Assembly: GCA_033964015.1 (NCBI GenBank)
Contig: CM066922.1
Location: forward strand, 946,856-1,010,855
DNA: 64,000 nucleotides
DNA from: Scolanthus callimorphus
Taxonomy: Eukaryota > Cnidaria > Anthozoa > Actiniaria > Edwardsiidae
Reading direction: 5' to 3'
The notes below the pieces were generated by a model. That model was not told the DNA's origin. It saw only the letters and a program-made list of their open reading frames with translations, and did no database searches. A program made the translations under genes and the position numbers. Of the stretch, positions 601 to 49,534 are shown in pieces (positions within the stretch are counted from its first letter, which is position 1; every line of letters starts with the position of its first letter).

Positions 601-3600
601 ATACGGTGACAAAGCTCCTGTTACACTTATCGGAAGAATATATGGGATCGTGTGGATGATCATTGGTACAATAGTCATGTCCCTGTTCACCGGACAAATA
701 ACGGCAGATCTCACGTCTAATGTGGTCGGACAAGCCACTTCAGTTGTTGGAGAAAAAGTAAGTAGCGCAAATAAAATTAATAACATAATAAGTATTTAAT
801 GATCAATTCTTGTTAGAGGGTACATTTTATTTTGCAACGAACCTCATTCGACAGTCGCCATTTTGTCAACCTAGCAGAGCGTACCGAGTCAGAGAAAGCA
901 TCCATTTCAATCGGCTGATTTAGGGAATGCGGGGCAATTGAACTTTTGATGGATAAAGTAAAATTAAAATTTCGTTTTCTACTCACTATTTCGAGATTTC
1001 TACACAGATTTCTATATTCCCAATCAGATGAAAGCAATAAGAAAGGATAACAATTAGAAAGTTTCTATTGAAGATGCAAGGTCATATGAAAAGACATTTC
1101 TCCGTGCATCCTGGTGGAAACAGGAAACACCAAATACACGTATCCTGTGTGAGCGCGCGTCTCGCGCACACAGTCAGTGACAACAACAACACAAAAGCAA
1201 AGCAGCACCAGATCTGACCCTGGGGGTGACCCCTGGGGGGAGGTGAGGGAAGGACCCTGGCGCGAGAGGATGGATCTGACCATGGCAGTATGTATAGTAA
1301 GAAGTAAAGATTATGTGGTGAAACAAGAACATTTGTTCCTAAAAATATACATATCTATAAAAAAGCCTAGCCCATCTTGGATAACTCCCACCAGATGGGA
1401 CTCCTGCTTTAATCGCCAGATTGAGAACTTCATGTGGGTTAATTATCTTTTTGTTCTTAGGTAGCGACACAAATAGGAGTGGCGAACTTTCTGAAAAAAG
1501 AGACAAACCTGGGAGCCAAATACCTGGGTACGTAGCAACATTTGGACTTTGATAGCTTGTAAGATGCATCATGACGGAAACCAGGTCCAAGTAAACAATT
1601 TCTACTAATTATCTGGTGAACTCTCGCGGGCACAAAACGGACCTGGGTCCTCCTTCCCCTTCGCGCTTGCTGCGAAAATGTCTGGGAACCTCTTGTTGGG
1701 AAAAAATGTCTGGTCAAATTTAATCCACATTTGGAACTTCTCTGTGGAGGTTTTTTTTTCGTGTTAGGATTATTTGAAGTATTTGTGGGGTATTCTGGAA
1801 TTTTTATTCTTGGTGTTCACCTCCCGAGACATTTGATTTTTAGCGGGTTATTTCGAACAAAAAGCCAATATTCTGAAAGAGAACTATATCTTCAATAGCT
1901 TGGCCAAGTTTTAGACTTGTATCTTATATTGCAAGCGAGACGGAAGGACTCAAACATGGCGGCCAAATTACCAAATGTGCCGTAAGCCCATAATAATATG
2001 AGCTAGTATTTTACAAAATGTGATTTATTTGCATTTAGTTAGCATGTTGGCTTTCATTGAATGCTCCAAATGGGAAATTACTTGAAATATTGCGCGGAAT
2101 CAATGCCTAAAGAACCGTGACTAATGTTGCGTGACAGACATTGCAGCACCGATATCTCAGGATTTAAAAACAGGAACCCGATTAAATTTGGTGTGAAGAC
2201 TCCTATTGGGGAACTGTAACTGGTCTGAAAAGCGTAGTTACAAAGTTTGGATTTTGATGGCGTCATGTGAACACCAAGGATTCGTACTGGCTGGAAAAAA
2301 CTTTTTCACCGCTGGAAAATTCAAAATTAATGTAAATTTTTCCTTATTGATTATAAACTTACCTCGATCCTCGACCCACACGACCTCAAGCCTGCTTCAT
2401 CCTTTTATTAAATCGTTGCATTCTCGTACCCAGAGCTCCCCGGCTCGTCTGCTCGCAGGGTGGCTCTGGGAACATCCATTAAAGGGCCGTCGCTGATTGG
2501 CTAATTTTGAGCGTTGGAGCATGCGCTGAAAGTCTTCCTCTTGCTCTGTATTAAATCTCGCGCATGTGCGTCAGTGGCTGTCACCAGAGCCTCCCCCGCG
2601 AGCTTACGAGCCGGGGAGCTCTGGTTTCGAGAATGAAATCGTTGGGGTTTGAAACTTTTAAAATTATTTCGACTTATTCGTATTCAATAAAAACAGCCTT
2701 TGAAATGCATTTACCGGGAGAAGATCTGTATGTCAATTGACTATACTTTCAATCTTTTCCTTGTAGAGCTTCCCCTCTATCGTATATTTCAGGAGTTCAG
2801 TTTACCCTCGGGTGGAATCAAGTACTTTGTGTCTCACGACTACGGTGAAGCAAAGGAATCAGCCTCCAATTACACGGCGCCACCTACTTATTCCGTCGTC
2901 AAAACAATGGACCTACCGGTATGCCTGCTCATGTACTCAGGGAGTGGTGATAGAGTTTAGACGAAAGTGAATATATTGAAAACGGCTCTTACACCTCAGT
3001 GATCGTTTCGCCTTCGCTAACTATGAATTGTGCTAATTGAATTCCATGTAATGCTTTTTGATTCTCATGCTTTGAAATATCAACTACCATTAGCAGCTTC
3101 CCTAGTGTTTTGCCTTTATTTTTGGATATTTAGACTGCTAGAGATCAAATATTCGAAGATAAATTTCATCGTGAACTAGCGAAACAAACATTGAATGGAC
3201 AACTCCAACTGTTATTTGTAGCCCGCGACGCGTCATGGGAGAAACTAAGAAGGACGAAAAAGTTCTTGCGAACGATGCAATGTAGAATCGTTTGGCAAAA
3301 GCATAGTGATAAGTATGGTTATTTATCCTAAAAACTAGTGCCCATGTAGCCTGAATTTCAGCCGTCCCGTCCTTTTGCAAAAGGAGACGTCTGAATTCAC
3401 CTCAAAATCGGTCAGTAGAATCTGTGATTGGTTTGCGTTTCTCAGTAAGACGTGCAGGCGGACGATTCCATGGCAACGCACGCTCCGCCAAGCAAAAAAA
3501 CGAGCAAAACCTCTCAAGGCTCAAGGTTGACTCTCAAGGCGCCACATCACCTACAATTGTTGAATAAGGCGTGAGTTGTATTGGAAACGTTGGCTGTGAT

Positions 3601-5273
3601 TCCATGATAAGACTAAATCCCGTGGAGAATTCAGACGGCTCCTTTGCCGCAAAGTGAGGTAGATTCGAGAGCGAAGAAACGTCTGAAATTCAAGCTGTGT
3701 CCATGATTCTGTTTACTTTTAATATACCTAGTATTTGCTCCAACAGACAGCTGTGACGATGCACCATTTTCTGATTTTTTGTGCTGTTGTTCTGTGATAG
3801 ATGGCAAGTTATGAGCTAATATAAATCTAATTCTTAGTTTCATTTCAGTTTTCTGTAGGAATGGTCGTAACAGGGAATCCCTCAGGTATAATGGAGTTCC
3901 TGGTCTGTCTTCAGAGAGAGGCGATTGATCTTTATGAAATAGGAAAGGTAAGTTACTAGCCTTAACACATTTTTCCATGTACCATAGCCTGATGGTAGCA
4001 GGCGTGAAAGTTTGGGAGAACAAAGGCTGTGCCCCACTGCTCTGCAGCAGTCTCCCTGTAGACACGAAAAAGGCAGAATCGTTTAAAGCGCCGCTTCGCC
4101 AAACTGCCCTTCAAGCAGACGTGCTCACACTACACGTCCGTTCTGTAAACCAGCTGATTGTTTATTTTAGTTTTTAGAATTATCAAGTTGTGTAAGGTGT
4201 GCCTGTCTAAATAAAGATGTGTATGTTTGTTGTTTGTATGTACTTAAACCCAAGAGTCAGAAAAGTGTCTAATTTTGACACACCCACGAACTCGTCAAAA
4301 GGGTCTTTGGTTCCTACTAGGCCACGATCTGTCATTTCACCGCAGTAGTACTGTTACCGGCTCCCTCATATCCCATTTTCTACGTATCTTAACTACTTCA
4401 GGTGGCTACTTTTAAAAATAGAACTACCATGCTGTTTCTGCATTTCACTTGTACGGCTTGGAGATGCTTGTATTGAGTATAGCAGTACCGTAGAAGTAGG
4501 TTAATGCATATCTCTTTTCAATTTGTTGGGAAAATGCGTTTCTAAAAATAGCACTTTTCTGACGCTGATGCATGCATGGGGTGGGTCCTTAGTGATGAGA
4601 GTTGATGAGAGCTAATGAGAGTTCCAACTATCATCCACTCTCATACTCTCACGAGAAGCGATCAAACGGTGATGAGAGTTGATGAGAGCCAGCCGGAAGT
4701 TGCGCAAGCAATCTTGCGTGAGCACCAGTACCCAGTTCCTTTCAGCGGAGGGAAGTGTAACCAAACATGAACCAAATGAGCCTGCAGTTGTTTTGGCAGC
4801 AGCTGCTGACTGAAAAACTCTCATCAACTCTCATCCGCGCGATCAAACGGTCAGCAACTCATGAAAAATTTGAACATTTTCAAAGTGCATGAGACTGCAA
4901 AAGTGCAACCGGATGAGAGTAAATGAGAGTCGATGATAGTTCGCGATCAAACAGGAAAACTCTCATCAGCTCTCATTAGCTCTCATCAACTCTCATCACC
5001 GTTTGATCGCGCGTTCAGTAATAAGCTTGCGTAACGAGCGCAAAGGGAAAGGGAGAGAAGGGGCGACTCTTGATCAATCCTATGGAAATACTATTTCCAT
5101 ATGTCCACAGGCAATGAAATCGGATGACACCAATTCGGATGCCCTGACACGTCCCTCCCAAATAGATTCGGGTTTGAAGGCATTCCTTATAGCGATTGGT
5201 ACCGCGTTTGGCGTGTTTCTTCTCATGGGTGCACTGTGGGAAATTAGACGTAGAGCTAAAGTGAGAGGTCCTG
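601..5273 (+). CDS. Channel copy A: GluR0-like potassium-filter receptor channel (5' partial)
   Basis: Exons read from splice sites and from alignment with copies B-D: exon 3 601-757, exon 4 1461-1527, exon 5 2767-2918, exon 6 3849-3947, exon 7 5111-5273. Exon 3 opens with the last base of the split filter glycine, then YGDKAPVTLIGR, M2 (YGIVWMIIGTIVMSLF) and the TADLTSN motif. Exons 4-6 form the S2-like lobe, with the conserved CLQ motif in exon 6. Exon 7 carries M3 followed by the basic WEIRRRAKVR tail. All visible exons are open and in phase (2-0, 0-1, 1-0, 0-0, 0-1), so among the four copies this is the only one without an indel in what can be seen. Exons 1-2 (signal peptide, S1 lobe, M1, pore helix) are outside the window. 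The last, very short exon, expected to encode something like GHDSEA, was not found with confidence between 5274 and 7700. The family call is by architecture and motif; ligand and conductance are inferred. Confidence 0.75.
1130..1280. repeat. Dispersed repeat with CCAGGGTCC/GGACCCTGG core, copy 1
   Basis: Lies in intron 3 of channel A. It contains a run of CAACAACAACA and a G-rich part ending GGGAGGTGAGGGAAGGACCC then TGGCGCGAGAGG. The same block in reverse complement occurs at about 63100-63320 (CGCGCGCCAGGGTCC then TTCCCTCACCTCCCC), and a short relative lies at 13880-13910. It is non-coding, probably a fragment of a dispersed element. Confidence 0.5.
2422..2634. repeat. CTCGTACCCAGAGC inverted-repeat element, copy 1
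   Basis: About 210 bp in intron 4 of channel A, bounded by near-inverse ends: TCTCGTACCCAGAGCTCCCC on the left and GGGGAGCTCTGG followed by TTTCGAGA on the right. Inner blocks include a GCGCATG-type motif and AAATCTCGCGCATG. Related copies lie at 11270-11675, 47106-47317, 59265-59450 and 59467-59689. No coding potential; a MITE-type element. Confidence 0.7.
3346..3695. repeat. GCCTGAATTTCAG foldback element, copy 1
   Basis: The left end reads GTAGCCTGAATTTCAG and the right end is a degraded inverse (CGTCTGAAATTCAAGC). It shares GGAGACGTCTGAATTCAC and CTTACTGAGAAACGC-type blocks with the better-preserved element at 40656-41037. It sits in intron 5 of channel A. A reverse-strand open frame over 3631-4065 overlaps this repeat and exon 6 and is not a gene. 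Confidence 0.5.
4592..4999. repeat. GATGAGAG foldback element
   Basis: Both ends are runs of an 8-10 base motif in opposite orientation: GTGATGAGAGTTGATGAGAG on the left and its complement CTCTCATCAACTCTCATCAC on the right. CGATCAAACGGT is repeated inside. The structure predicts a long hairpin. It lies about 110 bp upstream of exon 7 of channel A. No open frame. Confidence 0.65.
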
Positions 5274-7205: not shown

Positions 7206-7425
7206 GGACACATGTAACGCGCAACATTTCAGTCCTGCATGTTTCTCCGAGTGGCTAAAATAGGAAACATCGCAAGCCTATGTCGAAAACGCAAAATGTT
7301 TCTTGTCTGGAGAAGAATTGAAAACAAGTTTTGTGTCCCGGCTACAAAATTTGTCACGCGCAACAATGTTTCTCGCGTGGCTAAATTGACAAACGTGCCC
7401 GGCTAGGTTGCGCGCTACATGTGCC
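7206..7425. repeat. GGACACATGTA-GCGCGCAAC inverted-repeat element, copy 1
   Basis: Ends are inverse: GGACACATGTAACGCGCAAC at the left and GTTGCGCGCTACATGTG at the right. The interior holds TGTCCCGGCTACAAAAT and ACGCGCAACAATGTTTCTCG phrases. A second member lies at 22233-22439 inside copy C. MITE-type, non-coding. Confidence 0.65.
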
Positions 7426-7728: not shown

Positions 7729-10700
7729 ATGTATCCGAGGTGCTGGAGTGAACATTTCTTAATCCTTTTTCTGTTAAAGAATGTGTCCGCAAGCAATGCC
7801 ACAGTTTGCCCTTCGTCTAAATTTCCTTTACCTATAAAGTGGATTCCTTTTTCTCCCTATATTTTCGAAGACATGAATGGAACTGTGGATGGGTTTTTGC
7901 CTTACAGTCTTCGCCGTGTGGATACTTCATGTGGATGCGAGAACGTTCGCTTTAACTACACACAAGTCAGCGCATTGTCTTCATTACAAGTAGAGATCGA
8001 GATCCGTAAGACCCAGTCCACAGATCCGCCAAAAGTTTATTTCCCTGTGTTCGCTAACAAAGACGCAACTATTCAATACCAAAGACGTTATCTGCAGCTC
8101 ATAGTCTTTCCCGGGCCCGCCATTGTCAGGTTTAACTTTGCAGGAAGCTGGGCGGAGAAGCTGGGCCTCTGGGATTTGTTCATGAAGTCTGCACTGTATC
8201 TGTTGGTTTCTGTTGTGTTGGCGATTCTGGCAGGATTCTTCGTTTGGGCAATTGTTAGTATGATCCTTATATTCAACATAGATAGATAGATGATTTCATT
8301 GAAACCATGGCAGCCAGAACGGCTGAATTACAGTTTAAATTACAAAAAACCCCTAAATATTAAAACTACTAATAAGATTGATACAAAAACTACCGATAAA
8401 ATGCATATATACAATGACATAGAAAATATAATATAAAAACGATATAATGGCTAGACTAAGCACTCGCATTAGCAATGATAAAACTGGTTTGAAATCTCTT
8501 CGTCTTACATAACGGCAGGTTAAACTTGCGTGTCAAACTTACTGTTCTTGAGTTTTTATTTTCCTCAGGTAGCAAATGGTGTAGCCTGTGCATAATGCCT
8601 AGAATTTCACTTTCTTGTCAGCTCTTGTCTAGTCTAGCCTTTCCAGCTCATTAGACAAATATTGCGGCAACCCATATTCTTCTGTTAAAGCCAGTTCCGG
8701 CTTGTTAAAGCCAGTTCCGTTTGAAAAATCCAAGGAATTCTTACCTATGAAAATGCAATTTCATTATTTGTAAATCACGCTATACGTCTTCTTTCGCGTG
8801 GAATTTGTGATCGCTGAAAAGCAAAATTACGAATGATCGAATGAATTGTTTATCAAATTCATCTTAATTTAGCTTTTCTTTACTTGTTTTCGTATTTGCT
8901 GCTTTGAAGAAGACATGCCTCTATTGAAGATACTGATTTTTTGTTATTGTTTTACCAGGAAATTCATGGAAACTCAGAGCAGTTCTCTCGTCCTTTTCCT
9001 CAAGGCGTGTTGATAGGAATATGGTGGGCCTTCGTTACCATGACAACAGTCGGGTAAGTGTCTGTGTTTGGTGGGTGACCGCCCCAAGGTAACCAGCGAC
9101 AAAAATCTCAAGATACACCAAACTAACATTCAGCTACCACAGACATCACTCAGTGGTAATGCAAAAGCTACCGGGAACGCTTTGAAGTTGTACTTGATTA
9201 ATCGGTTCCGAAATATCAATGCATTCACATTAAACTCTTTTAGTGCACACTTGAAGGTACTCGAAGTTACTGCGGTTTTCATAATTCTGCGAACTCTCGC
9301 TAACGATTTCCAACCGTAAAACCGCCTTCTGGCTTCCGTCAATCAAACTCCCGAGTCTTTTCGTCGTTACTTTTTGTGCTTTTTGATTGGCCAGCACGTA
9401 ACGTTGCTGTCGCGACAGGAAGCCATTTTAGCACTGCTTAGGCGCTGGCCAATCAAAAAGCACAAAGAGTAACGACGAAAAGACACGGGAGTTTGATTGA
9501 CGGAAGCCAGAAGGCGGTTTTACGGTTGGAAATCAATACCGAGAGTTCGCAGAATTACGAAAACCGCAGTAAATACATATATCTTATTAGATGTTACGAT
9601 TCTCAATAAACTCCTCTTGTCATTGATTCTTCAGAATAATAACCAGAATAAGCAATGAATACTTAAAATTGTCATTTTTCAGTATTCATTGCTTATTGGA
9701 TTTTATAATATAGCTACGATATAACGCGCTCTGATTGGTCTAAATCTATGCTCTATTTCACCGATAAAGTAATGGTTCTCTCCCGCTATATCATAAAAGC
9801 ATTAGAGCACAACCTTCTATGATATTATTGGAAAAATAGTGCACTTGTGTTGTTGGGAGAGACACTTGAAACGTTTAAAAAATCATTCACCTACGGCTCG
9901 TGATTTTACAACGTTCTCGTGTCTCTTCCAACATCGCGCATGCTCTATTTCGCCGCGATTAATTCATAGGAAGTAGTGCTCTAATAAATTCTTTCGTGTA
10001 ATACGGGCGGTTATTTTACGAGGGGCGAAGTAAAATGCGAGCAACGAGTAAAATGTTCGCCAGTATTACATGAGAGAACAACCGTTGAATTATTTATTAT
10101 ATACGAAGAACACAAATATTTACTTTTCTTTTCAAGATTCACTAGAAACGTACATGTTTAGACTAGCACGGGATCGGAAGGGCTTTCAATGCGCGCGTAA
10201 AACCGGCTTGCTACCGTGTAATACGGCTTTCAACCGTGTAATATTTTGTATATATAATTGGACTCCATGCTGCCCAATTAAGAAAAAATTGGATGAGAAA
10301 CTTCAGAGGAGCTCCAAAATTGGACGAGGCCGCAGGCCGAGTCCAATTTGGAGTTCCGAGGAATTTTAATATTGATTAATTATATAGTATCCATGTTCAA
10401 ATCCAAACTGTCCAATCTTAATGTGGGAACTGTCCAATTAGAAAGCGCGCGATCCAATTAAAAAATAATTGGACAATTCAAGAAAAATCAATCTGCCGGC
10501 ACAATTGGATTTCGAGCTGGCTATATAATTATGCGTGTAATATGGCTGCGTATCGGCACTAAATTTGAACCTCATATGGTAAGTGAGGTCACACAGTCGT
10601 ATAATAATTATATGTGCACTAAAGATGAAATATATATACAGACGTTTCGGAACTAGTGCATCTTCATCAGTGTAACTTTCGAAATCAATGTAAATGTGCA

Positions 10701-13700
10701 TAGCGTGATTGTTAGATAGCTGGTTTTTCCCCTTTGTGTGCCTACTCCTATCACCGAATTACTTGATATTTTGGTCGTTTCAGATACGGTGACAAAGCTC
10801 CTGTTACATTTATCGGACGAATATATGGGATCGTGTGGATGATCATTGGTACAATAGCCATGTCTCTGTTCACCGGACAAATAACGGCCGATCTCACGTC
10901 TAATGAGATGGAGGCCACTTCTCTTATTGGCAAGAATGTAAGTGCTACCTGTTCACAAAAAGGCCTGTTCGCATGAGGCGAGATATCACGGGCGGCGGGG
11001 AGTGTGAAACTGGCTCTGTTTCACACCAAGATATCTCGGGCGATAGTGCTTGCTAACCGTGCACGAATGATCTGCACGTCACGAGATATCTCGGGGTAGA
11101 CCTTTCACATGAAGCTGATGGTGGCCGAGACAACTATTGTGTTAATTTGGAATGTAGTTTATGATTTCAGTCACTTTAAGATTTTTAGTCACATGAGAGT
11201 CGAAAGGCCAATATTATATATACTAATAGAGTCTGAGACGATTAATTGTTTTTGTATAAAATAACCGGTACGCTCTGGGGACATCCATTTGAGGGCCTTC
11301 CATGACAATCTCGTACCCAGAGCCCGTCATCTTTTGGCCAGCCGCAAAGATTCAGGGCTCTGGGGGAATCGATTTTTTAAAACCCAGATTCTGGGTTTCC
11401 GGTTTGATTGTTGTATGAAAGTTCGTTACGTTTTTGACCTACCACGCATGCTCACAAATCGGATTCCCCCAGGGCCCTGAATCTTGCCGCTGGCCAAAAG
11501 ATGACGGGCTCTGGGTACGAGGTTGCTTCCATGATTGACTGAATTTCAACGTTGGTGCATGCGCAGTAAGCTATTTCTCTCAGCGGCTCTGTATCAAATC
11601 TCGCGCATGCGTCAATGGCTGTCGCTAGAGCCTCCCCCGCGTGCTGACGAGCTGGGGAGCTCAGGGTTTCGGAATTACCGGGTAGGAGATTATAGCAAAA
11701 GAATACAACTATCTCTTGACCAATCAGCGCGCGGAATTTCTTATAATCACTTGAGTAATATTATACTAATACCAAGTAACAACAGCACTATTTCATAACA
11801 CAAGTAAACCGCTCCTCAATAACGTTGTCTGATTTGTACCCAGGTCGCAACAAAGATAGGCCTTGCGAACTATTTAGAGCAGGAAATAAATCTTGGTGTC
11901 AATTACAAAGGTACGCCGCTAAACAAAGCAAGACCAGCTGAACTTTAAGAAATAATTAAAAGCGGACTATGAGGACTTGACTGGAAAGTCCGCGCAATTA
12001 GTTCCCGTCAGAGGCGAATGGAACTAATTGCGCCGAATAAAAGTGATTTCAATTAGCTTCAATACTTATTACTTATTATTACTTATTACTTATTATTATT
12101 ATTCATTGGGTAATCGGCCAGCACTGATGAAAAAGAAATTAAAGCATTAGAAGAAGATTTCAGTTTTGCATAATAACATAATTAGCAGGGGAGGGTAAAT
12201 GTTTCCTTCAACCCTGGGGAAGGGCCACAGTCTAGAAAGAGGGTGCTAGAAAGGAGGTCTAAAGTTTTTCAGCAATCTTTTTAAAAATAGTAGCTCCGAC
12301 CGTTAAATATATTGAAGAGTACTGTCTATCTTCTCAAGGACACCAAATTTTCTTTCTGTCAGGAGTGACTACTTTTGGAAGACGTAGAATTACGATTCAA
12401 GTTCAACTACCAGCCTTTTTAGTCCGACCTCATTTTTGAAAAGCTCTCTGCAATTGCTTTTTTTCTTCAGAACTTCCCGAAAATCGTCTAAATCAGGATA
12501 TTTTGTCGGATAAGATCAAATACCTTGCGTATCAGGACTATGCTCAACTAAAATCCTATGCCAAGTACAGTGGCACGACCCCTACTTTCACTATTGTCAA
12601 GGCAGTGGACCGGCCGGTATGTATTGAGCTTTATTTAATTAATTCATTAATCATTGATCAGTTTTCTTGTACAAAAGGCACCGTGCAAGTCTTCGTTTCA
12701 AAATCAAACAACCTAACCAACCATGATCGAACATACCAAGCATGATCCAACCTAACAACCAACCAAGCATGATTCAACCAACCAACCAACCAACCATGAT
12801 CGAACTAACCAACCCTGATCCAACCAACTAACCACGATCCAACCAACCAACCATGATCAAACCAATCAGCCAACCATGATCCAACCAGCTCTGATCAAAC
12901 CAACCAACCAACCAACCAACAATATCATAAAAACAACCAAGCATGATCCAACCTAACAACCAATCAAGCATGATTCAACCAACCAACTAACCATGATCCA
13001 ACCAACCAACCTTGATCCAACCAACCAACCATGATCCAACCAATCAACCAACCCTGATCAAACCAACCAACCAACAATGATCCAACCAACCAACCATGAT
13101 CTAACCAACCAACCAACCAACCAACCAACCAACCAACCAACCAGCCAACCAACCAGGATCCAACCTACCAACCATGGTCCAACCAACAAACAATGATCCA
13201 ACCAACCAACTAGCCATGATCTAACCAACCAACCACGATCTATACCTACCAACCATGATCCAACCAACCAACAATGATCCAACAAACCAACTAACCATGA
13301 TCTAACCAACCAATCAACCATGATCTAACCAACCAACCATGATCTAACCTACCAACCATTATCCAGCCAACCTACAATGATCCAATCCACCATTATCCAA
13401 CCAACCTACAATGATCCAACCCACCATTATCCAACCAATTAATCAAGATCCGGCCAACCAAAACCGTAATCCAACCAACCAACCAACCATGATCCAACCA
13501 GCCAACCATGATCCAGCCAACCAACCATGATCCAACCAGCGAACCATGATCCAGCCAACCAACCAACCATGATCCAACCAGCCAACCATGATCCAGCCAA
13601 CCAACCAGCCATGATCCAACTAGCCAACCATGATCCAGCCAACCCACCATGATCCAACCAGCCAACCATGATCCAACCAACCAACCATGATCCAACCAAT

Positions 13701-16700
13701 CAACCAGGATCCAACCAACCAACCATGATCCAACCAACCAACCATGATCCAGCCTACGTCAATCATGATCCAACCAATCAACCAATGATCCAACCAACCA
13801 GCCATGACCCAACCAACCATGAACCAACCATGATTTTGGCGGGGATCGGGACGAATCCTTGGCCTAGGCCATGGCCTACCCTCATGCGCCAGGGTCCTCC
13901 CTCCTGGGGAGGATGAAGTAGTGTTTCTTTGGCACGACGTTTTTATGGAAGAGATGATGATTCTCTGATCAGACGGGCATGGTAGGACAGCTATATGTAG
14001 ATTTTCGTGACATTTGATTACTATCGAGAAAACATCTTGATTGATAAAATCATCCGGTTAAAAACTATCATTATGGAACATTGTGTTAAACAAAGTCTGT
14101 AATTGTAAAGGTAGGGTGTTCTGATATTTATTTGTTTCCAGTTTTCAGTTGGAATGGTCGTAACTGGTATCATTCGGGTGTGATTGACTATCTAACTTGT
14201 CTTCAAAACAAAATTGTCGATCAGTATGAAATAGGACAGGTTTGTTACAAAGCGCATTGTTTTATTTGTCATTTTTGCCTTTTAAACCGTTCTTTTCGCA
14301 GAACAATTATGCTGTCCGTTTCAGAAAAAAAAAACATTTGAAATCATTTTCTAGCATTTTTAAAGACCATGGGATATGACACGAAACTAATTTTGGTCTA
14401 CAAAATGAAATTCATCAGTAAACTACTCGCTCCAAGTTTGAACAAAATCAGATAAAAAACAGCGAAGTTACGTCGCTTTGCTATTCGAATTTGGCTCTCA
14501 TAGAATTAACTCTTTAATGCGTATCAAATGTCGGATTTTAGTGACGTCAACATGTTTGTTTGGGACTTGGAAAACAATTAGCAAAAGGAACAAAAATATC
14601 AATTTAGCAGGTAAAATCAAAATAAGCAGCGTGAAAATGCGCTCGGTTATACAGTTGCACGAACATATCTTCCCTATAACAAATATATATGCTTTTCTTT
14701 GAATTTCTCTCTTAAACCGGCTATTGTACATTTAATATTAACACAACAAGTTTACGTCATGAAAGTCAGACATCCGACACCTTGACAAACAAACTTGGAG
14801 GGTCATTTCGGGACGTTAAACAGAAACTCTCGATGCCATAACTATCGTGTCACGATATGCTCTTTAAGGCATAACACATACGTCGTTCTAAACACGACCG
14901 TTCCTTAAGTATTTGGATCGGCCCAAATTTGGGAGAAGGGCTGTAATGTTAGACGACTTGCATAACAAGGCATGCTAAATGGTAATGTCAGCTGTAACAT
15001 GCGTATCGTGTTGCCACGGTTACAATTGAGTATCAGAGAGCCGGAAAGCTAACAATAGAGCTACCATGGGTTTTTGAATTTCCCTAATGCGGCTCGGCCG
15101 GTGCTGATATGAGAGACCTTTTAAAGCGCGACGACGGCAACGAGGACGACAACGGCAGAGAACAATACACTTGATTACATAGCATAATGCGTGCACGTGC
15201 AATTGTATAAAATCAAATGTATTTCAACCGTTTTCTTCAGAATTAGGACGTGAAACTGCTTTATTTTACGTTCTGACGAGAACGGTGAGCGCTGCTATTT
15301 TGTCAAAATCTTGTTTGAAATGATTGCAGTTGGATATAAATTTGCTGCTATCAAAGTTAAAATGCAATGGTGAATTCCTTTTGCTGTATATTGAGAAATT
15401 TGGAAAAACGATTACACGGATCGAGTTCAGTCGTCGTCCGTTGCCGTCTTCGCTAAGGTGTCTATTACATATAGGAGTGCCTCACACGTTAATTAACAGC
15501 AAGTCTTTCTTCAATTTTATGGAAAATGTACGTCTAAAAATAGCGCTTCTCTAGCGCTGATGGAGATTCATGCTCTTATCACAATAGTTCTTGCACGTAT
15601 TTTGTTCCCCAGGCAATGATGAGGCAAAACTTTAAGATGCATTTTGAGGTCGAAAGCGAAACTTCCACACTGCTGAATCAGGAGGATTTCGAGATATTCT
15701 ATGTAGTCGTTGGTTCCGTCTTCGCCGTACTTCTTCTTTTGGGTATCCTGTGGGAACTACGACGTAGAATGAAATTGAGAGCAGGGTCAGGTGAGATGGT
15801 TATTCTAATAACTCTTACATTTGATAGAAGCCACCACAAGGAGCCCGTCAAGAGAAGCCTCCATTACCTGTTGGTGGGTGTCCAAAAGCGCTTCCCTGCT
15901 AGAGGCCACTTCAAAACACAGAACAAGATACAAGTCTTCTGTTCTGTGTTTTATAGTGGCCTATGCACCCCAATGTCACAACCTCGTCCAGAATCGTGGA
16001 CGTACTTGACTGGCTTGACTTGTTTTTGCTTGGAAACAGCGCGCGCTTTCACGAGTGATTTCTTGTTCAGTGACAAACACACGCCATTTTCTCACACATG
16101 CGCGACAGAGAAACGACGTGTGTGCTAGAGGCTACTTTTGCGTAGCTGAAAAGTACAAGAAAACATCAATAGTACAAGAAAATGTAGGGAGATCTCTGCT
16201 CGCAGGAAACAAAAGCGCAGGAGTAGATGAATCTATTTTTTAAATTGTAGATTTTTAATTTTCCGCGAAAAAAACGCCGCCATCGCACTGCGCGTGTCTA
16301 AACCAAAACTCCCACCAACAACAAAACTTATTTTCGAGGAAAGTTCAAATGCACATCTAAAAATAGATTCTTCTACTCCTGTAGGAGCCATTAAATATGA
16401 GCCTCCAACTGGCTTATAAAATTGAGGCTCCGTTTTTCCTGACCTATCTATTTTTAAAATAGATTTGGTTAATTCTTTGTTTGCTGGTTACGCTAGAAAG
16501 CAAACATAGATCAGAGGCACCCAACGATAATTTTCAGTAAATTATCTGTTCGGATGGCGATACGAGAGCTGAAATTTTCGCATGTAGATTATAAGTTCCC
16601 CTGGATGTTTCGAATTGCACAAAACGTGAAATTGTACTACTTCTGGGTTTTTTTTTTTGCCGTTAAAAAGGTCACCTAGAATTTTCGGATAGAGTTTCTT

Positions 16701-17518: not shown

Positions 17519-17682
17519 CGGAACATTGCTTTTTCAGAAGTCCGGACGTCGCAACGTCACTGTCTTGTACGATCGTACAAACCCTGAGCTCTGTGGGACA
17601 TTGCTGGTCGCGACATCAGTCCAAAGGGAAGCAGAGAAAGTAGAAAAGACCTTTTTGATTCAAAGTTACTTATTAGCGTGCA

Positions 17683-34800: not shown

Positions 34801-37800
34801 CATTTTACTGCGATTTTCATAATCCTGCGAACTCCCACTTTCATTTCCAAACGCCAAACTGCGTTTTGGCTTCCGTCAATCAAACCTTTAAATTAAGTCA
34901 AGTCCGCGCATTTCTGAGTTTGGTTTGCATTTTACAGTGAAAATTTGTGTTTTGAAGCCTACCTAGCCCTATCAGTTCACAAGGCCTGAAATTACCCAGA
35001 GATGTTCACTCGTTTAATTGACGGAAGCCAAACCGCGGTTTGCTGGTCGGTGCTAAGAGTTAGCAGAATTATGAAAATCGCAGTAGGTATTTTAAGAGAA
35101 ATATAGGGTATGGACCGCTAATTTTCAGGCCCCCGAAGGGGGTCTTGGAGCCCTTGAGCCGCGTTTTTCACTGAAGCCCTGGAGCCTAGCCTGTGAAAGC
35201 CGGCAGTACTTGGCGCTCGTCGAAAGACACTCGCGCAAAGAGGCGTCTGCGCGCTCAAGCCAAACATTCCATACTGATGACGTATTTTGACCCAGATCTG
35301 GTCAGAAGTATTACGTGGCCAGTTTGAATGTTTGATATTTAATTTTTATAGCATACAATGCATTTTATAGAAAGGTATTCAAATAAGACGAAAAAAGATG
35401 CAACAAAGTTAAATGGCCATGTAATTCTTCTGGGTCAGAATACGTCATCAGTATGGAATGTTTGGCTTGAGCGCGCAGACGCCTCTTTGCGAGAGTCTCT
35501 TTCGACGAGCGCCAAGTGGTGTCGGCTTTCGCAAGCTACCTGGAGCCCCGAAATGGCGTTTTAACACCAAAGATTCAGAAACTCCCTTTTATAGTATTTT
35601 TCATAACTTGGGGGTTGCCATAGTTACGAAAATCATCTTATTTTGGCGTGGCTGGAGCCCAGAATCCACACGCCTAGACGGAGCACGGGAGGCCAGTGTT
35701 TTTCGCTCTGGAGCCCTGGCGCCCTTCCAATTTAGTGCCCGGAACCCTTCGAGTGCCTGAATTGTGTACGGCATTTTTAGGCTATTTAAGACATTTCAAC
35801 TAAAGGCATTATTTTAGAGGAATTCAAGAATGGGTAATAACTATTTGAAAATATTAAAGTAATTTTAGACTATTTACATGTTAGGCTAACTTTAGGGCTA
35901 TTTTACATTTTTGAGCAGGTATTTTGGGCAAAAATGGCATTTTAGATTAAATTATTTGTAGAGTCCATACTAGAGTCCAGATGGGCTTCATCTTGATTTC
36001 ACACATTCTATTTCCCAGGCAATGCAAGCCAGTAGGACAAATTCTGAAGTCGAAAGCAAAACTACTGCCGCGGATCATACAGATACAAAGGCATTTCTCA
36101 TAGGCGTTGGTTCCGCCTTCGCCGTATTCCTTGTCTTGGTATCCTGTGGGAACTAAGACGTAGAGCCAAAGTGAGAGCAGCTGATGAGAGTAAGTTTTTA
36201 TTTTACGTGATCAAACGTGATCGAGTTTTTTCGTGAAAAAAATATAAGATGTGAAATGTTTTAGCAAGAGTGGATTACCAAGAGTTTCCATATTTACTAT
36301 GTACGCCCGAATCAAGTCAGAAAAGTGTCTATTTTTAGAACTAGGATTCCCGCGAAAATTCGTCATCCACAGGGTTCCCACTTTCTCGCCACGCAAACAG
36401 TTGTGAGATCCGGCCTAAAATTAAATCGCAGATCAATCGAAAATCCTTTAAAGTCGCAAAGATAAGGTAGGATATTCTCTATTTGTTGTGTATTGGGTAT
36501 ACGAGCATTCGAACCCGAGCATTCGAATACTTTCGCGCGCGAAATTCAAATCTAAAAATAGACACTTTTCTGACTGTGATGTGGACAAATACTGTACGAA
36601 AGATTCTAACTCTTGTTAATCCACTCTTGGTTTTAGACATCGTCGGTAAAAGCACCCGAAAAAGCTTCACAAAGCAAATTTTGATTAGATAATTTTAGTT
36701 TTTCCAGGCTTTGCGTATTCCCAGTTTTCAACAGGGGACTACAGGGCATAACAGGGACGTACAGGGTACAACAGGGCCGGATAGGATACAACAGGGACGT
36801 ACAGGGTACAACAGTGCCCAGCAGTGGCGTACAGGGTATTTTCGTGAACCGTGATCGACCTTTTTCTTTTTCGTGATCCGTGAAAATGGCAAATCTTGTT
36901 TCGTGATTCGTGCACAAGAATCGTGACGTGACCCGTGAAAGTCGTTTTGAAATGCTCGAGAGTCGTGATTTTGAGCTGATAAAGTCACGATTTGTGATTT
37001 CGTTTTGTGTGTGTCCCGGCTGAGATTAAGCATACAGCGAATTGTCCGTGAGTTGAGTTGAGTTACGTCACCCCTGTCACGCAGTGTGGCGAGTGATAGC
37101 GCCTGGCCAATATCAACATGTCAAAAATATCAAATGGTCACATTGTTTGTCAATGTCACGTGCATTTTGATCTTGTGGATACTTCATTCAGATACAGTCA
37201 ACTCTCGCCTTGCGGACACCCCGCTATTACGGACACCCCGCTATTACGGACACCCCGCTATTACGGACACCCCGCTATTACGGACAAAAGCTAGACTGAA
37301 ATCAACTCTCGTTATAACGGACTCTCGCTATTACGGAAATGCGGGCACCTTTTTCCCCCCAGCGAGACATTTCAAGTGTTTTTTCTCTCGTTATTGCGGA
37401 CACTTCTGTTTGTCTACGGCAAGCAGTGCAAGGTTTTTATTTGAAAAATAACAAATCCGACTTTCCCCAATTTCCTGTTGCAGCACTCTCTTCGACACTT
37501 TGAACTTTTTTCACACCGGGAATTAGCGGACTGCTTGTTATTCACCAAACAATACAATAATAAACCTCAAACTCCATTGTTATCTATACCAGCTTCCTTA
37601 CAAGAATGGTTCAATAATCAGCAAAGTTTTCATCTCAGTTTGACACTGTTATCATTATATTTGACCATTATGATAACTTTTTAATGACGGATTATGATTT
37701 TTTCCTCGCACCCCGCTATTACGGACACCAAAGCTTACCCCCGAGGGTGTCCGTACTAACGAGAGTTGACTTATAGTACGTATAGCGTTAAATTGTGCCA

Positions 37801-41201: not shown

Positions 41202-41367
41202 CACAACTGAAGCCTTTCAGAAGCCCAGACGTGATAACTTCACAGTCTTGTACGATCGCACGATTCAGCTCAGTTCTCTGGAAGATTGCTGGTCACGACA
41301 TCAGTCCGAAGGGAAGTCGAGAAAGTGGAAAAGACTTTACGGATTCATAGTTACTAATTAGCGTGCA

Positions 41368-41977: not shown

Positions 41978-44900
41978 ATGTCACCAAAGACTGCCTCGTT
42001 GCAAGCCTCCTTCCTTCTGGTCTTAATAACAACTGTTGTAGGAACCAACAGGACCTTTTGTCCCAATACAGACCTACAAATTCAGTGGATTCCACAAATG
42101 CCTTACATCTATGAGTCCAAAGGAAAGGTGTCAGGGGAGCTACTAAAGCATTTCGACGAAGCAAGAAACTCTTGCGGATGTCCAAACACTCGTTTTGTCT
42201 ACACGAACGTGAATGTCTCTTCTTCCTCTGAACTTGAAATCAAGATTCGTCAAACACGGGACAAAGATCAGCCAAGAATATATCTTCCCGTCCTGGCCGA
42301 CAAGAATGCTGAGAATCAGTATCAGAGACCTTTCTACCCGCTTATCTTTTCTCCCGGCCCTTCCGTTATAAGGTTTAACATCGATGGAGGTTGGACTGAC
42401 AAGCTAGCACCGCTCCAGTTGTTTATGAGGTCGGCACCATATCTGATGGTTTGCGTATTGCTAGCTCTGCTTTCTGGATTTTTGATCTGGGCAATTGTTA
42501 GTATTAACTTTGTATTGCATAATATAAAAAGATATCGAGCATACAGATAATTTATATCGATGCTGCAATCCTGAAGAGTTTACATCAAACTATTGCTGAA
42601 GTTTCAAAAAATATTCTCAAAGTTAAAACCATTATTATTCTTTGTCACTGGGTATTTGCTCTAGTTTCCAAACTCACCATGCATAACTTTTTGTTTTCAT
42701 AAGCAGAAAGTGATGTTTAATTCGAAACTCCCAAATGACCATTATAATGAAGATGTAATGCTTAGGCGGAGAAATTTGAGATGAATGATACATGATACGC
42801 AACTAACAGTAGCATAGAATTATTGCAATTATAGCGCAATTTCTGGTATTGCCGTACACTTTCTGCGTTCTTCCCCTAATATCTTTAAATTCTCCTTTGG
42901 ACTCAGGAACTTCGTGGTAATTCCGAGCAGTTCTCTCGGCCATTCCCACAAGGCGTTCTGATAGGAATATGGTGGGCTTTCGTTACCATGACGACGGTTG
43001 GGTGAGTATTTGAGTAGTCCGTGTGTCCGACGGGTGATTGGCCGGGGAAGAATCCAGTCTTTTCGCTACTTTGCATCAAATAATTGGAATACGCTGGCAG
43101 ATATAAATCGCGCCACGGTCGGACTAAGGATTTCATAAACAACACCATATGAACTTCTTATCACATCATGATATATTTTTATCACAATTATAATATCTTA
43201 TATTGTGAATAACTATTTAGAAATTTAGACTAGCGAGTTGTAAATTTTAAATTATGTATATTAGTTTAAATTTCGATTTATATATTTATTTGTATTTATG
43301 AATTGCGGCTTCCTGTAAAGAAGCCTTGTAGCTAAGTGTTGATGTTAAATGTTAAATAAACTAAATAATTGTAATCTATTGTTCTCTACTCTATTGTGCT
43401 CCTTTGTTCCCTATTGTACTCTATTGTTCTCTACTCTATTGTACTCTAGTGTACCCTATTGTACTCTATTGTTCTCTACTCTATTGTACTCTTTTGTATC
43501 CTATTGTACTCTGTACTCGACTATTCTACTCTATTGTCTCTATTCTACTCTATTCTATTCTATTCTACTCTTGTATTGGCAACTTGTCTCTCGTTATGGT
43601 TGAATTACCGAGGTGTATTTCGTTTTACTGCAAACATCAAAGCATCTGCATATGCAAGACCACCACATGATGTGTGAATTCTGTTTTAGTTATGGTGACA
43701 AAGCTCCTGCGACATTTATCGGACGAGTTTATGGCATTGTGTGGATGATGATTGGTACAATAGTCATGTCTCTGTTCTCTGGGCAAATGACTGCCGATCT
43801 TGCATCTAACGAGATCGGTTCTGCTGCTAACTTGATAGCCGGCAAGGAGGTAAGCTTGAAACACGTGTTGATAGTCTGATGATGTCCTCTTGCAGTCGGT
43901 TATATCAACCCACCTGTTTAGTAAAAATGACAATCCTTACTGTGACATCCCAAATAATGAATGCAGACTGTGAGTTCTTTTTTGGTTTGACATGAGTATG
44001 TAGTGTACTGTCTCAAGTTCTCAGGCGCGGATCAGACGTATTTACACTTGTTTACAAAACCAATTCAAATTTTTGGTATGTTTTTAAATTATTATTATTT
44101 TCATCTTTACTTAAAAACTCTCGTATTTGCGAAATTCCACGCAAAAAACCGACCGTACTAAATAGGTCAGATTTTTTTAGGATCCGCGCCTGGTTCTGCA
44201 TCACACACTCAACTCAACTTGTCTGTCTTGGGCCTTTTAAGGCCCTGTTCACACTACCGCGTTTTCAAAAGTATTCGTTTTCACACTTATACGGAATTCG
44301 ATGAAAACGATCAACGTGTGGACGGGAGATTTAGCTCCAAACAAGCGATAAGCGGAAATTCCCAAGCGGAAATTCCCATGGTAGAAGAATGTGAAATGTT
44401 CGGATTTCCCAAGACTATCCATGTGAATTCCGAACACTTCCTACGCGTGTGCCTTGGGAAATTCTGCTTTTCTCATGGATGGGTTCCTGCAAAATGTGCG
44501 GTTGTCAAGGAAATTGTACCTTCTTATGCCGTTATTTGCTGAATTAAAATCTTGTCAATCATTTTGAAGTAACACATTTTGATATGTTGGTTGACAGGTA
44601 GCCACAGAGATAGGAATGGAAGCATTTTTGAAGAAGGAAGCAACCTTGGCGCCATTTACATAGGTTGGTGAGTCATCTTTTATCAACACCACCTAACCTA
44701 CCTAATAACGCTAATAACACCACCACCCGTAACAAAGGATCAAAACATTGCTGCCAATGGCAAAACAATGGCTCACATTAAAACTTCTCTAGCTTTTGCT
44801 ACGAATCGACAAATTTAGTGTGGCTCCATATCGTATTTCCAACTATTTCCAATATGCAAACTTTGGTAGCCAAATGCGCGCAATTTAGTATATCGCTGAT

Positions 44901-47900
44901 CCGCCGGACTAATAGACCTCTTTCGCTTGGGCAAATGTTGGCATTCACATGAGTATTATCTTTTTTCGTTTTTCTGCTGCGTACGGAACGATATATGAAT
45001 TTGGAAGCATCCCAAACAAAAAAATACTGAAATGAATGCCACACGATCTGAAATGGGACAACATTACGTCCAAGATTCAGATTGCAATGCATACAGTGTG
45101 CATATAGTTTACAACTACGTGTCAGTGCCATCTACCCGTGATTAGAATCACCCAACTAGTGGACTATTGCCAATGCTGCATTCTGATTGGCTACGCTACT
45201 AGGGGACTTTTATCAATAGACCTCTAGCAGCGAAAGCGCCGATATTTAACATGAAAACAATAGCGACCGCTTCTCGTTTTGTCGAGGTTTCAACACAATT
45301 TTTTTAACACAATTTTTTTTATTTTTTAATATAGTAATTTGTCACTTTGTTTGTCCAACTAGTTGGGTGATACTGAAACAATAATTAGATCTCTCGCCAT
45401 CAAGGGCCACGGGTCCGATAGCCCATTCAGCCTGCGGCCTCATGGGCTATTGGCCCGTAGCCAATCAGGAGATCAGGTCTAATTGTTAATTAGTTACCGA
45501 GGAATAACCTATCAACATTAATGAAGAGTCTGCGTACCATATTGGAATTCCAAAAGTTTTCCTAGTCTTAATTCTTTCTTTATAGTTTGCCCACGCAATT
45601 GCATTGCAGGGGGATGTTACACATGCGCTTTTCGCTGCAACTCGCAATAATATTGCGTTGCAAGTTGCAAGAAAAATTGCCTCATATAACATGGCCTTTA
45701 GTTCTTCCTGCTTGTTTTGTGGCTGTGAAAATTATCCCTTCTTCACTGTTTTAATATCAAACTTTCGCATTATCTTTATGACACTTAAATGCAAGTGATA
45801 GAGAAAGAACGTTTTGCGTTTGGGTCATTGTGATTCACACGCTAGCTGCGTTCGGACTTGCGTTTGCGTTCAAGAGTGAATCAGCCTTACCTGAAGAAAC
45901 CATTTCTACTTCCAAGAGAACTAATTTTTTGTTGTTGTTGTAGAACTTCCCTTTACCACGTTATTAGCCCAGTTCAAGGACCCCTCTCCGAAAATCAAGT
46001 ACTTCGTGGCAAATATTATGAAGCCATAAACAGGCTCCATCAACAACGCTTTGGTAAACCAGCTTCGGACGTGGTCACCATCGTGAAAACAATTGACCTT
46101 CAGGTATATAAATAATACCAAGATTTGCAGTTCAGTCAATTTAACGGACAGAGCGCTGGACACGTTTGCAGCACAACGTTAGGGACATTCTCAGTGTTCA
46201 TTCAGTGGCACAATTGCACGAGAAAAGAAATCATTGAAAAAAATCCATTGCGTCCATTCTCGTGCCAAGATAATGTCAGACTTGCTCTTTGTGTGGCTGC
46301 TTCAGAGATGGCGGTGCCGGGGTGGCTAGGGGGCTTTAGCCTCCCACACTTTGTCAAGTTTCCATACACTTACACCAAACTCATACAATCTTACTAATGA
46401 GCCCCCCCCCCCCCCCCCTCCGCACTTTGTTCCGCCGTCCCTGCGCTTGTTACGTTAATGAAGTGGATATTCTTTTTTCTCATTTAAGTTTGCGATGGGG
46501 ATGGTCTTAACAGGTCGCTTCGACAGGGTAGATAAGGCGTTCCTTGGATGTCTGCAACGTGCGGTGGTGGACCTCAATGAGATAGAAATGGTAGAGAAAC
46601 AACGTCTAAGAGTGACCTGAGATATAGACCTCTTTACGTTGGGCGTAATGTTTTCCCATTTCAGATCACGTGGCGTTCATTTGAATAAGCTTTCTTTGTT
46701 TGGGTTGCTTCAATATTCATATATCCTTCGGTGTGTAAAAGACAGAAAAACAAAGAAGGAATACTCATGGGAATGCCACGTGATCTGAAATAGGACAACA
46801 TAACGCTCAAGTTAAAGAGGTCTATAGACCTCCTCGGCTTGGGCAGAATGTTTTGCCCATTTCAGATCAGGTGTCATGCATTCCCATGAGTATTCTCTCT
46901 TTGTTTGGAATGATTCCATATTCATATATTCTTCGGTGCGTAGCAGAAAAAAAAGAGAGAATACTCATGGGAATGCCACGTGATCTGAAATGGGCAAAAC
47001 AAACGGGCAAGCCGAGGAGGTCTATTGCTTGGCCCTCTCAGTGTCTTTCAAAAAAGCCCGGAAACGGTGAATGCGCATGTCAGTAACACTGAGATTGATT
47101 TTCGAACCCCTTGCTCCTTACTCGTCTCCTCGCGGGGGAGGCTCTGGTAACAACCATTGACGCATGCGCGAGATTTGATACAGCGCCGTTGAAAGATACA
47201 ACGTTCTGCGCATGCCCCAAAGTTCAAAATCAGCCAATCAGCGAAGGCCCTCAAATGGATGTCCCCAGAGCCTCCACTGCGAGCAGACGAGCCGGGGAGC
47301 TCTGGGTACGAGAATGAGATTGATGATAATAAGAGTGTGTGTCTCTAAGAAGTCACCACTCACTTGATTTGGCCACTTCCATACTTCACGATGGAGGTTA
47401 TTCCAATGAAGCAGCATCCTTGGGTAAAAGGGGAACTTATAGGTAGTAGTCGCAAGTCGCGACGGGTGGGAGTAGAAAGGCGTCGCCAGAAGAGCGGGTT
47501 TAAGTATCAATAGCAACAGGCTGGAAAGCTTTATCAGAATTAGCCAGATATAGCAATACCCACACCACCCCTCCCCCCTTCCCTCAGACAACAATTTGTA
47601 GCTACGGCCTTGCAACAAATTATATTAATCAGAGGGTTTATGTATTGGTTCCAACCATGTATCATAGTGAAGTGAAGTCTCCTTTTTCTCGATTGACAAA
47701 CTATACAGAGAACACTCGACGACATCGTGTTGCGTTGTGGCATAATTCAACATGAATTGCTGCTTTCCCAAACGAGAAAACGAGAATTCGTCATAGTGAC
47801 ATAGTACATAGTCACGAGCAACGTTAATTGAAAAAGACCTGAAACAGACACATTTTTTTTTCTTACCGATGTCTTTTTATCCGTGATGGGAGGGGGCAAG

Positions 47901-49534
47901 CCTTGGCCATCCTTTGTTTTCGCTCGGGGCTAACAGGTTTTTCCTCACATAGTGACACTATAATGTTTACTCGCTGGGTGGGGGTGGAGGTACTGCTTCG
48001 TCTCCCCCCCCCCCCCCCCCCCCCCCCCGCTACAGTACTGTGTTGCTGCTATGTACAGCTAGTTGTGTGATCGAAGGAGACCCATAAACGCAGTTTGACC
48101 GTTACTTTAGAGTTCGTAGAATTATGTAAACCGCACAGCAAACGCTCAATCGCACAAACACATCGAATAGAAACGTGTGAACGTATGAGACCGTCATGTG
48201 TACTACAGTGGCTGATAGAATGCATGGTGCCCGTGCTAATATTTACAATCGCCCTTCTTATTACTCCCAGGCAAGGATATCATACCAGAGAAAACTAGAG
48301 GAGGAAAATCCAACCAGTTACCCAGCTTTAGGCGGCAGTTGGCTGACCTTTCTCACAATAGTAGCCTCCATATTTGGGTTTTTTATCCTGTTGGGTATCC
48401 TGTGGGAGATCAGACGGAGGATGCAAGTGCGGCAGAGGCCTGGTAAGAAAACATTGTTCCCAGTCTACAGCGAAAGCGGCCTCCCTCTGCCTACGCCCCT
48501 GATTCATTCTCTCTTAAAAAATCCCCCCCGCCCCTACTTTCTTTTGAAGCCAAACATACAGTGTATGGGACAAACATTAAAATACACGTGTAAATGTCTT
48601 AGGAAGAGCCCCTTTAAGCTCCCTCCATCCTGGCTACACCACATAAAAAGCATCGAAATATACTCACTTTCAAATGAATTAAAACATCACTATTGATGTA
48701 AATAAAATCCTAGTGCTGTCCGAGAACTGTATTACAGCGATTTAACTTTATTTTTATCATCTTATTGGAATACTCACGGAGGGCGCCGCTTATTTGAAGG
48801 CTGCCCTTAATAACTTTTTTGCTTCAAGTGTGGGTGCACTTATTTCGGGGCTTTTGAAAAGTTTGATGCGTAGCACTAAATTTGCATAATGCATAAATTA
48901 AAGTTAAATTAAAGACATGACAACGGCAACGATAATGATCAGAAAGACTTGACAATGATCATGACAATGGCATAGATATGATAATGATACTACCGCGCGA
49001 AATCACTAAACTGTATAGCACGAAAGAAATGACCGATCGGTTTTCAAAGGACGATTATACAGCTGTAAGCGCGCGCGCTCTTCTTAATTCAGAAATGCCC
49101 AAGCCGTGTTCCACAACTACCAGAATGCAGCGCGCGTGATCGATCGATCGAAATGATCACATGACTCGCATTTCTTTTGTTTGATGTTAGAAATGTACAG
49201 AGGCAATGACCATATCGATCGAACGAAATGGCCACGTGAGTTATAACCGAGTTTGAAAAACGATCGATTGTTTTCCCCAAAATCATGCAAAATGCTAACA
49301 GTTTAGTTTCGGTGTAATGTCTTAATGACAAAAGGCTAATGGCAATGACCATGATAATGTCATGACAAGATGGCAGTGGTAATGACAACATTTGATAGCG
49401 TATGACTTGTGTGGAAATACAAGACTTTTCACACACCGTTCATTTTTGTTTTGCCTACAGGACGCGATAGCGAGAAAGGACTTGCCGGACCTATCACCAA
49501 CGCATGGGTTGACAAAGCAACAACGCCCAAGTAG
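41978..49534 (+). CDS. Channel copy D: GluR0-like potassium-filter receptor channel
   Basis: Eight exons: 41978-42496, 42907-43001, 43690-43849, 44598-44663, 45944-46103, 46489-46590, 48271-48442 and 49461-49534 (TAG at 49532). I start at 41978 (MSPKTA, as in copy C); an in-frame ATG at 41915 would add 21 residues. Residues: signal about 1-22, S1-like lobe 23-150 with FCPN and SCGC cysteines, M1 about 152-173, filter T203 V G Y G D208, M2 219-240, TADLASN, then S2, M3 (WLTFLTIVASIFGFFILLG) and WEIRRRMQVRQR. This is the most diverged copy and has the longest C-terminus (GRDSEKGLAGPITN onward, 25 residues). Exon 4 is one base short and reads into TAG at 44661; exon 5 lacks one base near 46012 (GCAAATATTATG), giving a stop. 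Other exons are open and all boundaries are GT-AG. Confidence 0.7.
43045..43375 (+). mobile_element. LINE 3' fragment in intron 2 of channel D
   Basis: At about 43055-43135 a frame reads SFRYFASNNWNTLADINRA, resembling the F...AS..WN.LP..I..A terminus of non-LTR retrotransposon ORF2. It is followed by AT-rich sequence and a short hairpin (GCGGCTTCCTGTAAAGAAGC then CTTGT) near 43305-43330 and AAATAAAC at the end, typical of a LINE 3' UTR. Confidence 0.55.
43376..43572. repeat. CTCTATTGTACT microsatellite
   Basis: About 200 bp of pyrimidine-rich units (CTCTATTGTACTCTATTGTT, later CTATTCTACT) directly after the LINE fragment. It may have grown from the LINE tail. Open frames in all three + frames are low-complexity by-products. 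Confidence 0.8.
44913..45080. repeat. TAGACCTC inverted-repeat element, fragment
   Basis: Begins TAGACCTCTTTCGCTTGGGC, shares CATGAGTATT and GATCTGAAATGGGACAACAT with the two complete members at 46625-46824 and 46824-47024. The right end is degraded. Intron 4 of channel D. Confidence 0.5.
46625..46824. repeat. TAGACCTC inverted-repeat element, copy 1
   Basis: Left end TAGACCTCTTTACGTTGGGC; right end AACTTAAAGAGGTCTA-like (GTTAAAGAGGTCTA). TTTCAGATCACGTGGC faces GCCACGTGATCTGAAA. About 200 bp, in intron 6 of channel D, abutting the next copy. Confidence 0.7.
46824..47024. repeat. TAGACCTC inverted-repeat element, copy 2
   Basis: Left end TAGACCTCCTCGGCTTGGGC, right end GCAAGCCGAGGAGGTCTA; ATTCCCATGAGTATTCTC faces GAGAATACTCATGGGAAT. 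It directly follows copy 1, sharing or nearly sharing the TCTA junction. Confidence 0.75.
47106..47317. repeat. CTCGTACCCAGAGC element, copy 3
   Basis: Matches the family at 2422-2634: CTCGCGGGGGAGGCTCTGGT, GACGCATGCGCGAGATTTGA, AATCAGCCAATCAGCGAAGG, and the right end GGGGAGCTCTGGGTACGAGA. Opposite orientation to the copy at 2422. Intron 6 of channel D. Confidence 0.7.

Follow-up and report, generated by a model that had tools for sequence, protein, structure and literature searches.

A tandem array of genes joining glutamate-receptor-type lobes to a potassium-channel filter in the cnidarian Scolanthus callimorphus

The locus

The window analysed here (the whole stretch of 64,000 nucleotides, C12:946856-1010855, contig CM066922.1) comes from the 597-Mb assembly of Scolanthus callimorphus and carries a tandem array of four homologous exon sets, copies A to D, all on the forward strand, for channels that combine the build of an ionotropic glutamate receptor (iGluR) with the filter of a potassium (K+) channel. 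Each set has one exon for the S1 lobe and the membrane segment M1, one for the pore helix, one for the end of the filter and M3, three for the S2 lobe, and one for M4 and a basic tail. An earlier, sequence-only reading had already recognised a four-copy array with S2 split over exons 4 to 6, and both statements stand. It also gave every copy a complete build; homologous exons are indeed present in all four, but the frame is open only in copy A, and copies B, C and D are broken. Its view that the array lies within the window holds for copies B to D but not for copy A, whose exons 1 and 2, with a predicted signal peptide, S1, M1 and the pore helix, lie upstream at C12:943454-946295, the array starting about 3.4 kb before the first base of the window.

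Copy A consists of exon 1 (C12:943454-943978) and exon 2 (C12:946201-946295), both on the forward strand with an open frame, followed within the window by exon 3 (601..757; AG/GT, open), which carries YGDKAP, M3 and TADLTSN, exons 4, 5 and 6 (1461..1527, 2767..2918 and 3849..3947), which carry the S2 lobe from its start to its end, and exon 7 (5111..5273, the spliced model ending at 5272), which carries the S2-M4 linker, M4 and the start of the basic tail. Spliced together, these seven exons form an uninterrupted frame of 419 residues. Since exon 7 is followed by a GT, the tail may continue in another exon. The motif TMTTVGYGD cannot be read in any one frame: TMTTVG closes the pore exon and YGDKAP opens the next, and the intron that splits the filter is in phase 2, after the second base of a glycine codon. 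Because this codon is interrupted, a six-frame scan shows no GYGD at the filter; TMTTVGYGD is present once copy A is spliced.

In copy B, which follows the same splice pattern, exon 1 (7729..8253) carries a predicted signal peptide, S1 and M1, exon 2 (8959..9053; AG/GT) the pore helix and TMTTVG, exon 3 (10784..10937) YGD and M3, exons 4 to 6 (11844..11910, 12471..12616 and 14142..14239) the S2 lobe, and exon 7 (15613..15790) M4 and the start of the tail; the frame is broken in exon 6, the first stop falling at residue 343 of 421. Copy C, with approximate limits for exons 3 to 7, comprises exon 1 (19809..20340, ends approximate) with two frame changes, exon 2 (21132..21227, start approximate) with the pore helix and TMTTVG, exon 3 (22045..22201) with YGD and M3, exon 4 (24552..24618), again frame-broken, exons 5 and 6 (31485..31627 and 33979..34080), and exon 7 (36021..36193) with M4 and another break. 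Copy D, approximate from exon 2 onwards, has an open exon 1 (41978..42493) with a predicted signal peptide, S1 and M1, then exon 2 (42907..43001) with the pore helix and TMTTVG, exon 3 (43690..43846) with YGD, M3 and TADLASN, the frame-broken exons 4 and 5 (44598..44664 and 45944..46104), exon 6 (46489..46590), and exon 7 (48271..48442) with M4 and the start of the tail. The breaks thus number at least one in B, at least four in C and at least two in D, those of C and D being read from the frames, unlike A and B, which were spliced.

These breaks make us lean towards an array that is mostly decaying, with B, C and D as pseudogenes beside one working gene. Such decay bears, however, on the number of copies and not on the nature of copy A, and the breaks may be assembly errors. 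A second contig of chromosome size carries further exon sets as a duplicate array (C8:22978206-23016517), colinear with the first in stretches of 92-99% identity (for example 97.9% over 8,056 columns within the 20 kb of C8:22978000-22997999), which looks like a recent segmental duplication or else an assembly artefact. The counterpart of copy A there has an open frame, the filter TTVGYGD and 413 of 419 residues identical to A; the counterpart of copy B is without the exon 6 break, as judged by alignment and not by translation, and this speaks against decay. So does the low ratio of nonsynonymous (dN) to synonymous (dS) substitutions that persists in the pore exons of B, C and D. For all six copy pairs dN in the pore exons is 0.012-0.058 per site and dS 0.20-1.00, which means strong purifying selection on this part of the protein. 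Exon 1 is far looser (A against B, dN 0.33 and dS 0.80; in both comparisons with D dS is saturated, and C, with its broken frame, was left out).

The pore and its filter

A pore tree of 70 rows and 112 columns groups the family at 81/98, together with P0214, a protein labelled bacterial and lacking PF00497. The three Kv proteins of the S. callimorphus genome sit together on a long branch as a separate group (100/99), and outside the family (97/93) lie six ordinary iGluRs from the same genome. Whether the family falls within the Kv channels was a question raised with the sequence-only reading, and in this tree it stands apart from the three Kv proteins; a Kv origin is ruled out by it, on a sample of three Kv proteins that did not extend to K2P channels. 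Candidate origins may be ancient retention, transfer from bacteria, or reversion from an animal iGluR.

It could be argued that the array codes for voltage-gated or K2P channels whose flanking exons merely resemble receptor lobes, since the best Pfam and PDB sequence matches of copy A are K+ channels and some of its relatives bear the database name "Kv subfamily F member 1". We consider this hardly credible: those matches come through the pore, no voltage sensor is found in the 419 residues, the lobes match periplasmic binding proteins and the bacterial receptor GluR0 both by sequence and by predicted fold, and the three Kv proteins are separate in a tree that is without K2P channels.

Among the matches sorted as eukaryotic, GYGD is found in 143 of 143, with TTVGYGD in 140 (139 by pattern, to which P0131, a sequence that starts at the filter, was added) and ATVGYGD in three; the rate is biased, since search and query have exact words in common. 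The three variants, P0313, P0322 and P0337, come from Montipora and read TMATVGYGD. A divergent gene of the family on the minus strand of the S. callimorphus genome (L044, C9:25135000-25141999) has a pore exon ending in SMTSVG and a joined filter TSVGYGD. No GYG was seen at the corresponding place in eight ordinary iGluR loci of this genome (the best 8 of 76 Lig_chan matches).

Fold and topology of the lobes

The sequence-only reading had placed a bilobed binding domain around the K+-type pore, and this is borne out by structure prediction on two relatives and by a profile match of the lobes alone. AlphaFold models of a Nematostella protein (P0001) and of a hemichordate protein match AMPA-receptor chains (Foldseek/VIA), and in the P0001 model the helices 144-174, 186-201, 214-247 and 386-417 follow the order M1, re-entrant pore, M3, M4; their orientation in the membrane is one that we infer. 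With the pore removed, the lobes matched bacterial GluR0-like ligand domains (98.6%, E value 8e-16; controls 0 of 20). Among six relatives, Lig_chan scores above its cut-off in P0121, P0245 and P0272 and below it in P0234, P0258 and P0338. The earlier statement that the amino-terminal domain of animal iGluRs is missing agrees with the absence of the ANF domain from copy A and from 14 of 14 relatives scanned.

Of the 85 aligned rows of the family, copy A among them, 82 have an M4-like segment, followed by a net positive stretch, and 70 have a hydrophobic start. All five glycosylation sequons of copy A are in S1 or S2. Across the 85 rows their density per 100 residues is 1.88 before M1, 0.75 in S2, 0.27 in the channel core and 0.90 in the tail, and the value for S1 supports a position of this lobe outside the cell. 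A pair of cysteines is conserved in S1 (66 and 61 of 85 rows) and another cysteine in the last part of S2 (75 of 85), possibly forming a family-specific disulfide.

The ligand site

The roles of the residues in this site are those which we take over from AMPA-receptor structures. A first alignment by hand had left the family without either of the charges that bind an amino acid; this was abandoned, as in the 85-row alignment most rows retain the acidic charge and most lack the basic one. Of these rows, 84 have the proline of the S1 "PLT" site and 76 the tyrosine or phenylalanine of the PY position, and the S2 residue corresponding to the alpha-amino site is D or E in 74 (in copy A this column reads H and the next one D). 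At the S1 position of the carboxylate-binding arginine, K or R stands in only 20 of 85 rows, although these columns are gappy; copies A, B, C and D all have lysine. Amino acids are therefore not an assured ligand on this alignment, and a fair guess would be a compound that bears an amine, and an alpha-carboxylate in some cases only; in copy A a carboxylate could still pair with the lysine. Some accepted iGluR-type receptors are also without the carboxylate arginine, and for this reason copy A is classed by its fold and order, not by its ligand.

One may ask whether the response to a ligand has been lost altogether, leaving a K+ channel that is constitutive or gated otherwise, or a subunit working only in heteromers. 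The scarcity of the basic residue would fit this, as would the fast evolution of exon 1 beside the pore exons; we nevertheless think it unlikely, because the proline before the arginine site, the aromatic residue and the acidic S2 residue are so widely kept, and because a fast-evolving S1 beside an unchanging pore is also what receptors diversifying in their ligands would show.

Distribution

The sequence-only reading spoke of a local expansion. The array is real, but the family is not merely local: the S. callimorphus genome has 35 places with an S1-like exon, 34 of them on C1-C15, and in 28 a pore or M3 exon follows within 8-9 kb downstream, leaving 7 without (the 35 places were picked by hand from two single-protein searches, the M3 rows carry no strand check, and some places may be allelic). 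Relatives, moreover, occur across phyla. They were taken from the best 120 of 1536, the best 120 of 130 and the best 120 of 496 matches, with bacteria present in two of the three lists, and were limited to at most 1.75 times the query length; the taxonomic group was checked for six of them, and many matches are unnamed metagenomic proteins. The nearest among those listed are from Nematostella and Actinia, P0001 matching copy A with 49% identity over 98% of the length. Cnidarian relatives come from sea anemones, stony corals, octocorals, Rhopilema (Scyphozoa) and Hydractinia (Hydrozoa), and others from the annelids Dimorphilus and Owenia, the brachiopod Lingula and the hemichordates Saccoglossus, Ptychodera and Glandiceps.

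In some relatives (P0258, P0272, P0121 and P0338) CUB and Ig, EGF or FN3 domains precede the lobes; P0258 goes under the database name Cubilin. Fusions of this kind would suit a clamshell receptor of the adhesion or signalling type that no longer conducts and in which the filter is a fossil, a role that has been proposed for delta receptors. We judge this improbable, even more so than the loss of ligand gating, given the strong purifying selection on the pore exons and GYGD in every eukaryotic-sorted match, with due regard to the bias of that search.

The same filter is seen in P0086 (Tetraselmis) and in P0201, an unnamed metagenomic protein bearing EF hands, so that similar K+-filter channels may exist in algae or protists.

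Interpretation

That the family joins iGluR-type lobes to a K+ filter is, in our opinion, close to certain, and by predicted fold and order of parts it is placed in the iGluR superfamily. The spliced exons put TMTTVGYGD between the halves of a predicted glutamate-receptor-type clamshell, and it is likely that the intact copy encodes a channel gated by an extracellular ligand, permeable to K+ and hyperpolarising. The predicted signal peptide would take S1 outside the cell; a small ligand would shut the S1/S2 clamshell and, as in other iGluRs, pull M3 open in a tetramer; K+ would then leave through the TVGYG filter and the cell would be hyperpolarised. The selectivity, the gating and the inhibitory role are what we infer from this architecture.

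Several observations weigh against this proposal. With its basic residue mostly lost, the pocket for amino acids is no longer complete in the classical sense, and gating could have gone with it. Frame breaks affect three of the four copies. The fold was predicted for two relatives and not for copy A (49% identity to P0001), and the AMPA-receptor matches over the full chain reach TM-scores of no more than about 0.3-0.4 of the query, with a root-mean-square deviation above 10. The Pfam scan of copy A gave neither SBP_bac_3 nor Lig_chan-Glu_bd, and its Lig_chan score of 29.1 bits is just under the cut-off of 30.8. Among the 17 rows of the lobes-only PDB profile there is no animal iGluR, and four are unrelated chains of the bile-salt-hydrolase type (E values 0.2-0.7); when the lobes were compared untrimmed, 2 of 10 column-shuffled controls scored 99.3 over 20-24 columns, apparently a gap artefact. 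Sequons are not enriched in S2 relative to the tail. Lastly, the deep branches of the pore tree, between GluR0-like bacteria, Kv channels and the animal family, are without resolution, and the bootstrap had not settled.

The closest known system is GluR0 and the other prokaryotic "Group 1" iGluRs, which share with the family the order S1-M1-P-M3-S2, the filter TTVGYGD, the lack of an amino-terminal domain and a closely similar pore (N.EQF...WWA.VTMTTVGYGDKAPVT..GR), although they are prokaryotic and their lobes are only about 10% identical to those of the family. PMC12332018 and PMC6385376 describe GluR0 as K+ selective and without M4; the identity of order between GluR0 and the array that the sequence-only reading had assumed is thus not upheld, M4 being present in the family (exon 7) and absent in GluR0 (PMC6385376). 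In PMC2950845 the combination of a K+ filter with an iGluR is confined to bacteria, as far as its authors could determine. AvGluR1 of the rotifer Adineta vaga has a eukaryotic iGluR architecture according to PMC12332018, and PMC12226733 describes it as highly atypical, opened by glutamate and hydrophobic amino acids and preferring K+ over Na+; it differs from the broad family seen here in being a single receptor, a comparison that rests on published descriptions and not on the full sequence.

The animal iGluRs (AMPA, kainate, NMDA, delta and epsilon) have the same fold of ligand-binding and transmembrane domains and the same order M1-P-M3-M4, but in the family the amino-terminal domain is missing and a K+ filter replaces the Q/R/N loop. 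Kv channels have the filter TMTTVGYGD and the pore helix in common with it, but the family has no voltage sensor, forms a separate pore group and is predicted to lie in the opposite orientation.

In animals, fast inhibition by small ligands is attributed mainly to chloride channels, and K+-selective iGluRs have so far been credited to bacteria and one rotifer protein. With relatives in jellyfish, worms and acorn worms, animals likely have a little-noticed class of receptors that would quieten cells and not excite them. In its full form, namely a lineage akin to GluR0 that has gained M4 and extends from Cnidaria to hemichordates as an unrecognised animal class, with dozens of loci in this genome and CUB, Ig, EGF or FN3 fusions elsewhere, and that provides, without recourse to G proteins, either chemosensing or fast inhibition by ligand-gated K+ flow, we would give this idea an even chance. 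What is likely to be new is a K+-filter iGluR with M4 and without the amino-terminal domain as an animal family; no case from a cnidarian, annelid, brachiopod or hemichordate, or from any animal but the rotifer, was found in the open-access literature, outside which preprints and most subscription papers lie, and "potassium", "GYG" and "GluR0" do not occur in the main text of PMC6307864. If true, so broad an animal family bears on the origin of iGluRs from K+ channels, offers natural tests of K+ filters within an inverted iGluR pore, may include new receptors for cnidarian feeding, stinging or symbiosis, and corrects database names under which some of these genes pass as voltage-gated K+ channels.

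Other features of the window

Within copy C, the intron that separates exons 4 and 5 contains, at 28126-29614 on the forward strand, a carbon-nitrogen hydrolase match (PF00795) and then a methyltransferase-like stretch in different frames, possibly a nested or decayed gene, and PIG-V mannosyltransferase exons (PF04188) lie at 61791-62989 on the reverse strand. A scan of the 64-kb window with Rfam found nothing that reached gathering scores. A minisatellite of about 57 copies of 19 bp (12709-13819) occupies part of the copy B intron that separates exons 5 and 6, and a second array, of an 18-bp repeat, is found at 57088-57895. The stretches 17481-17669 and 41164-41354, upstream of copies C and D respectively, resemble each other in several frames, which suggests a repeat element or a common upstream region.

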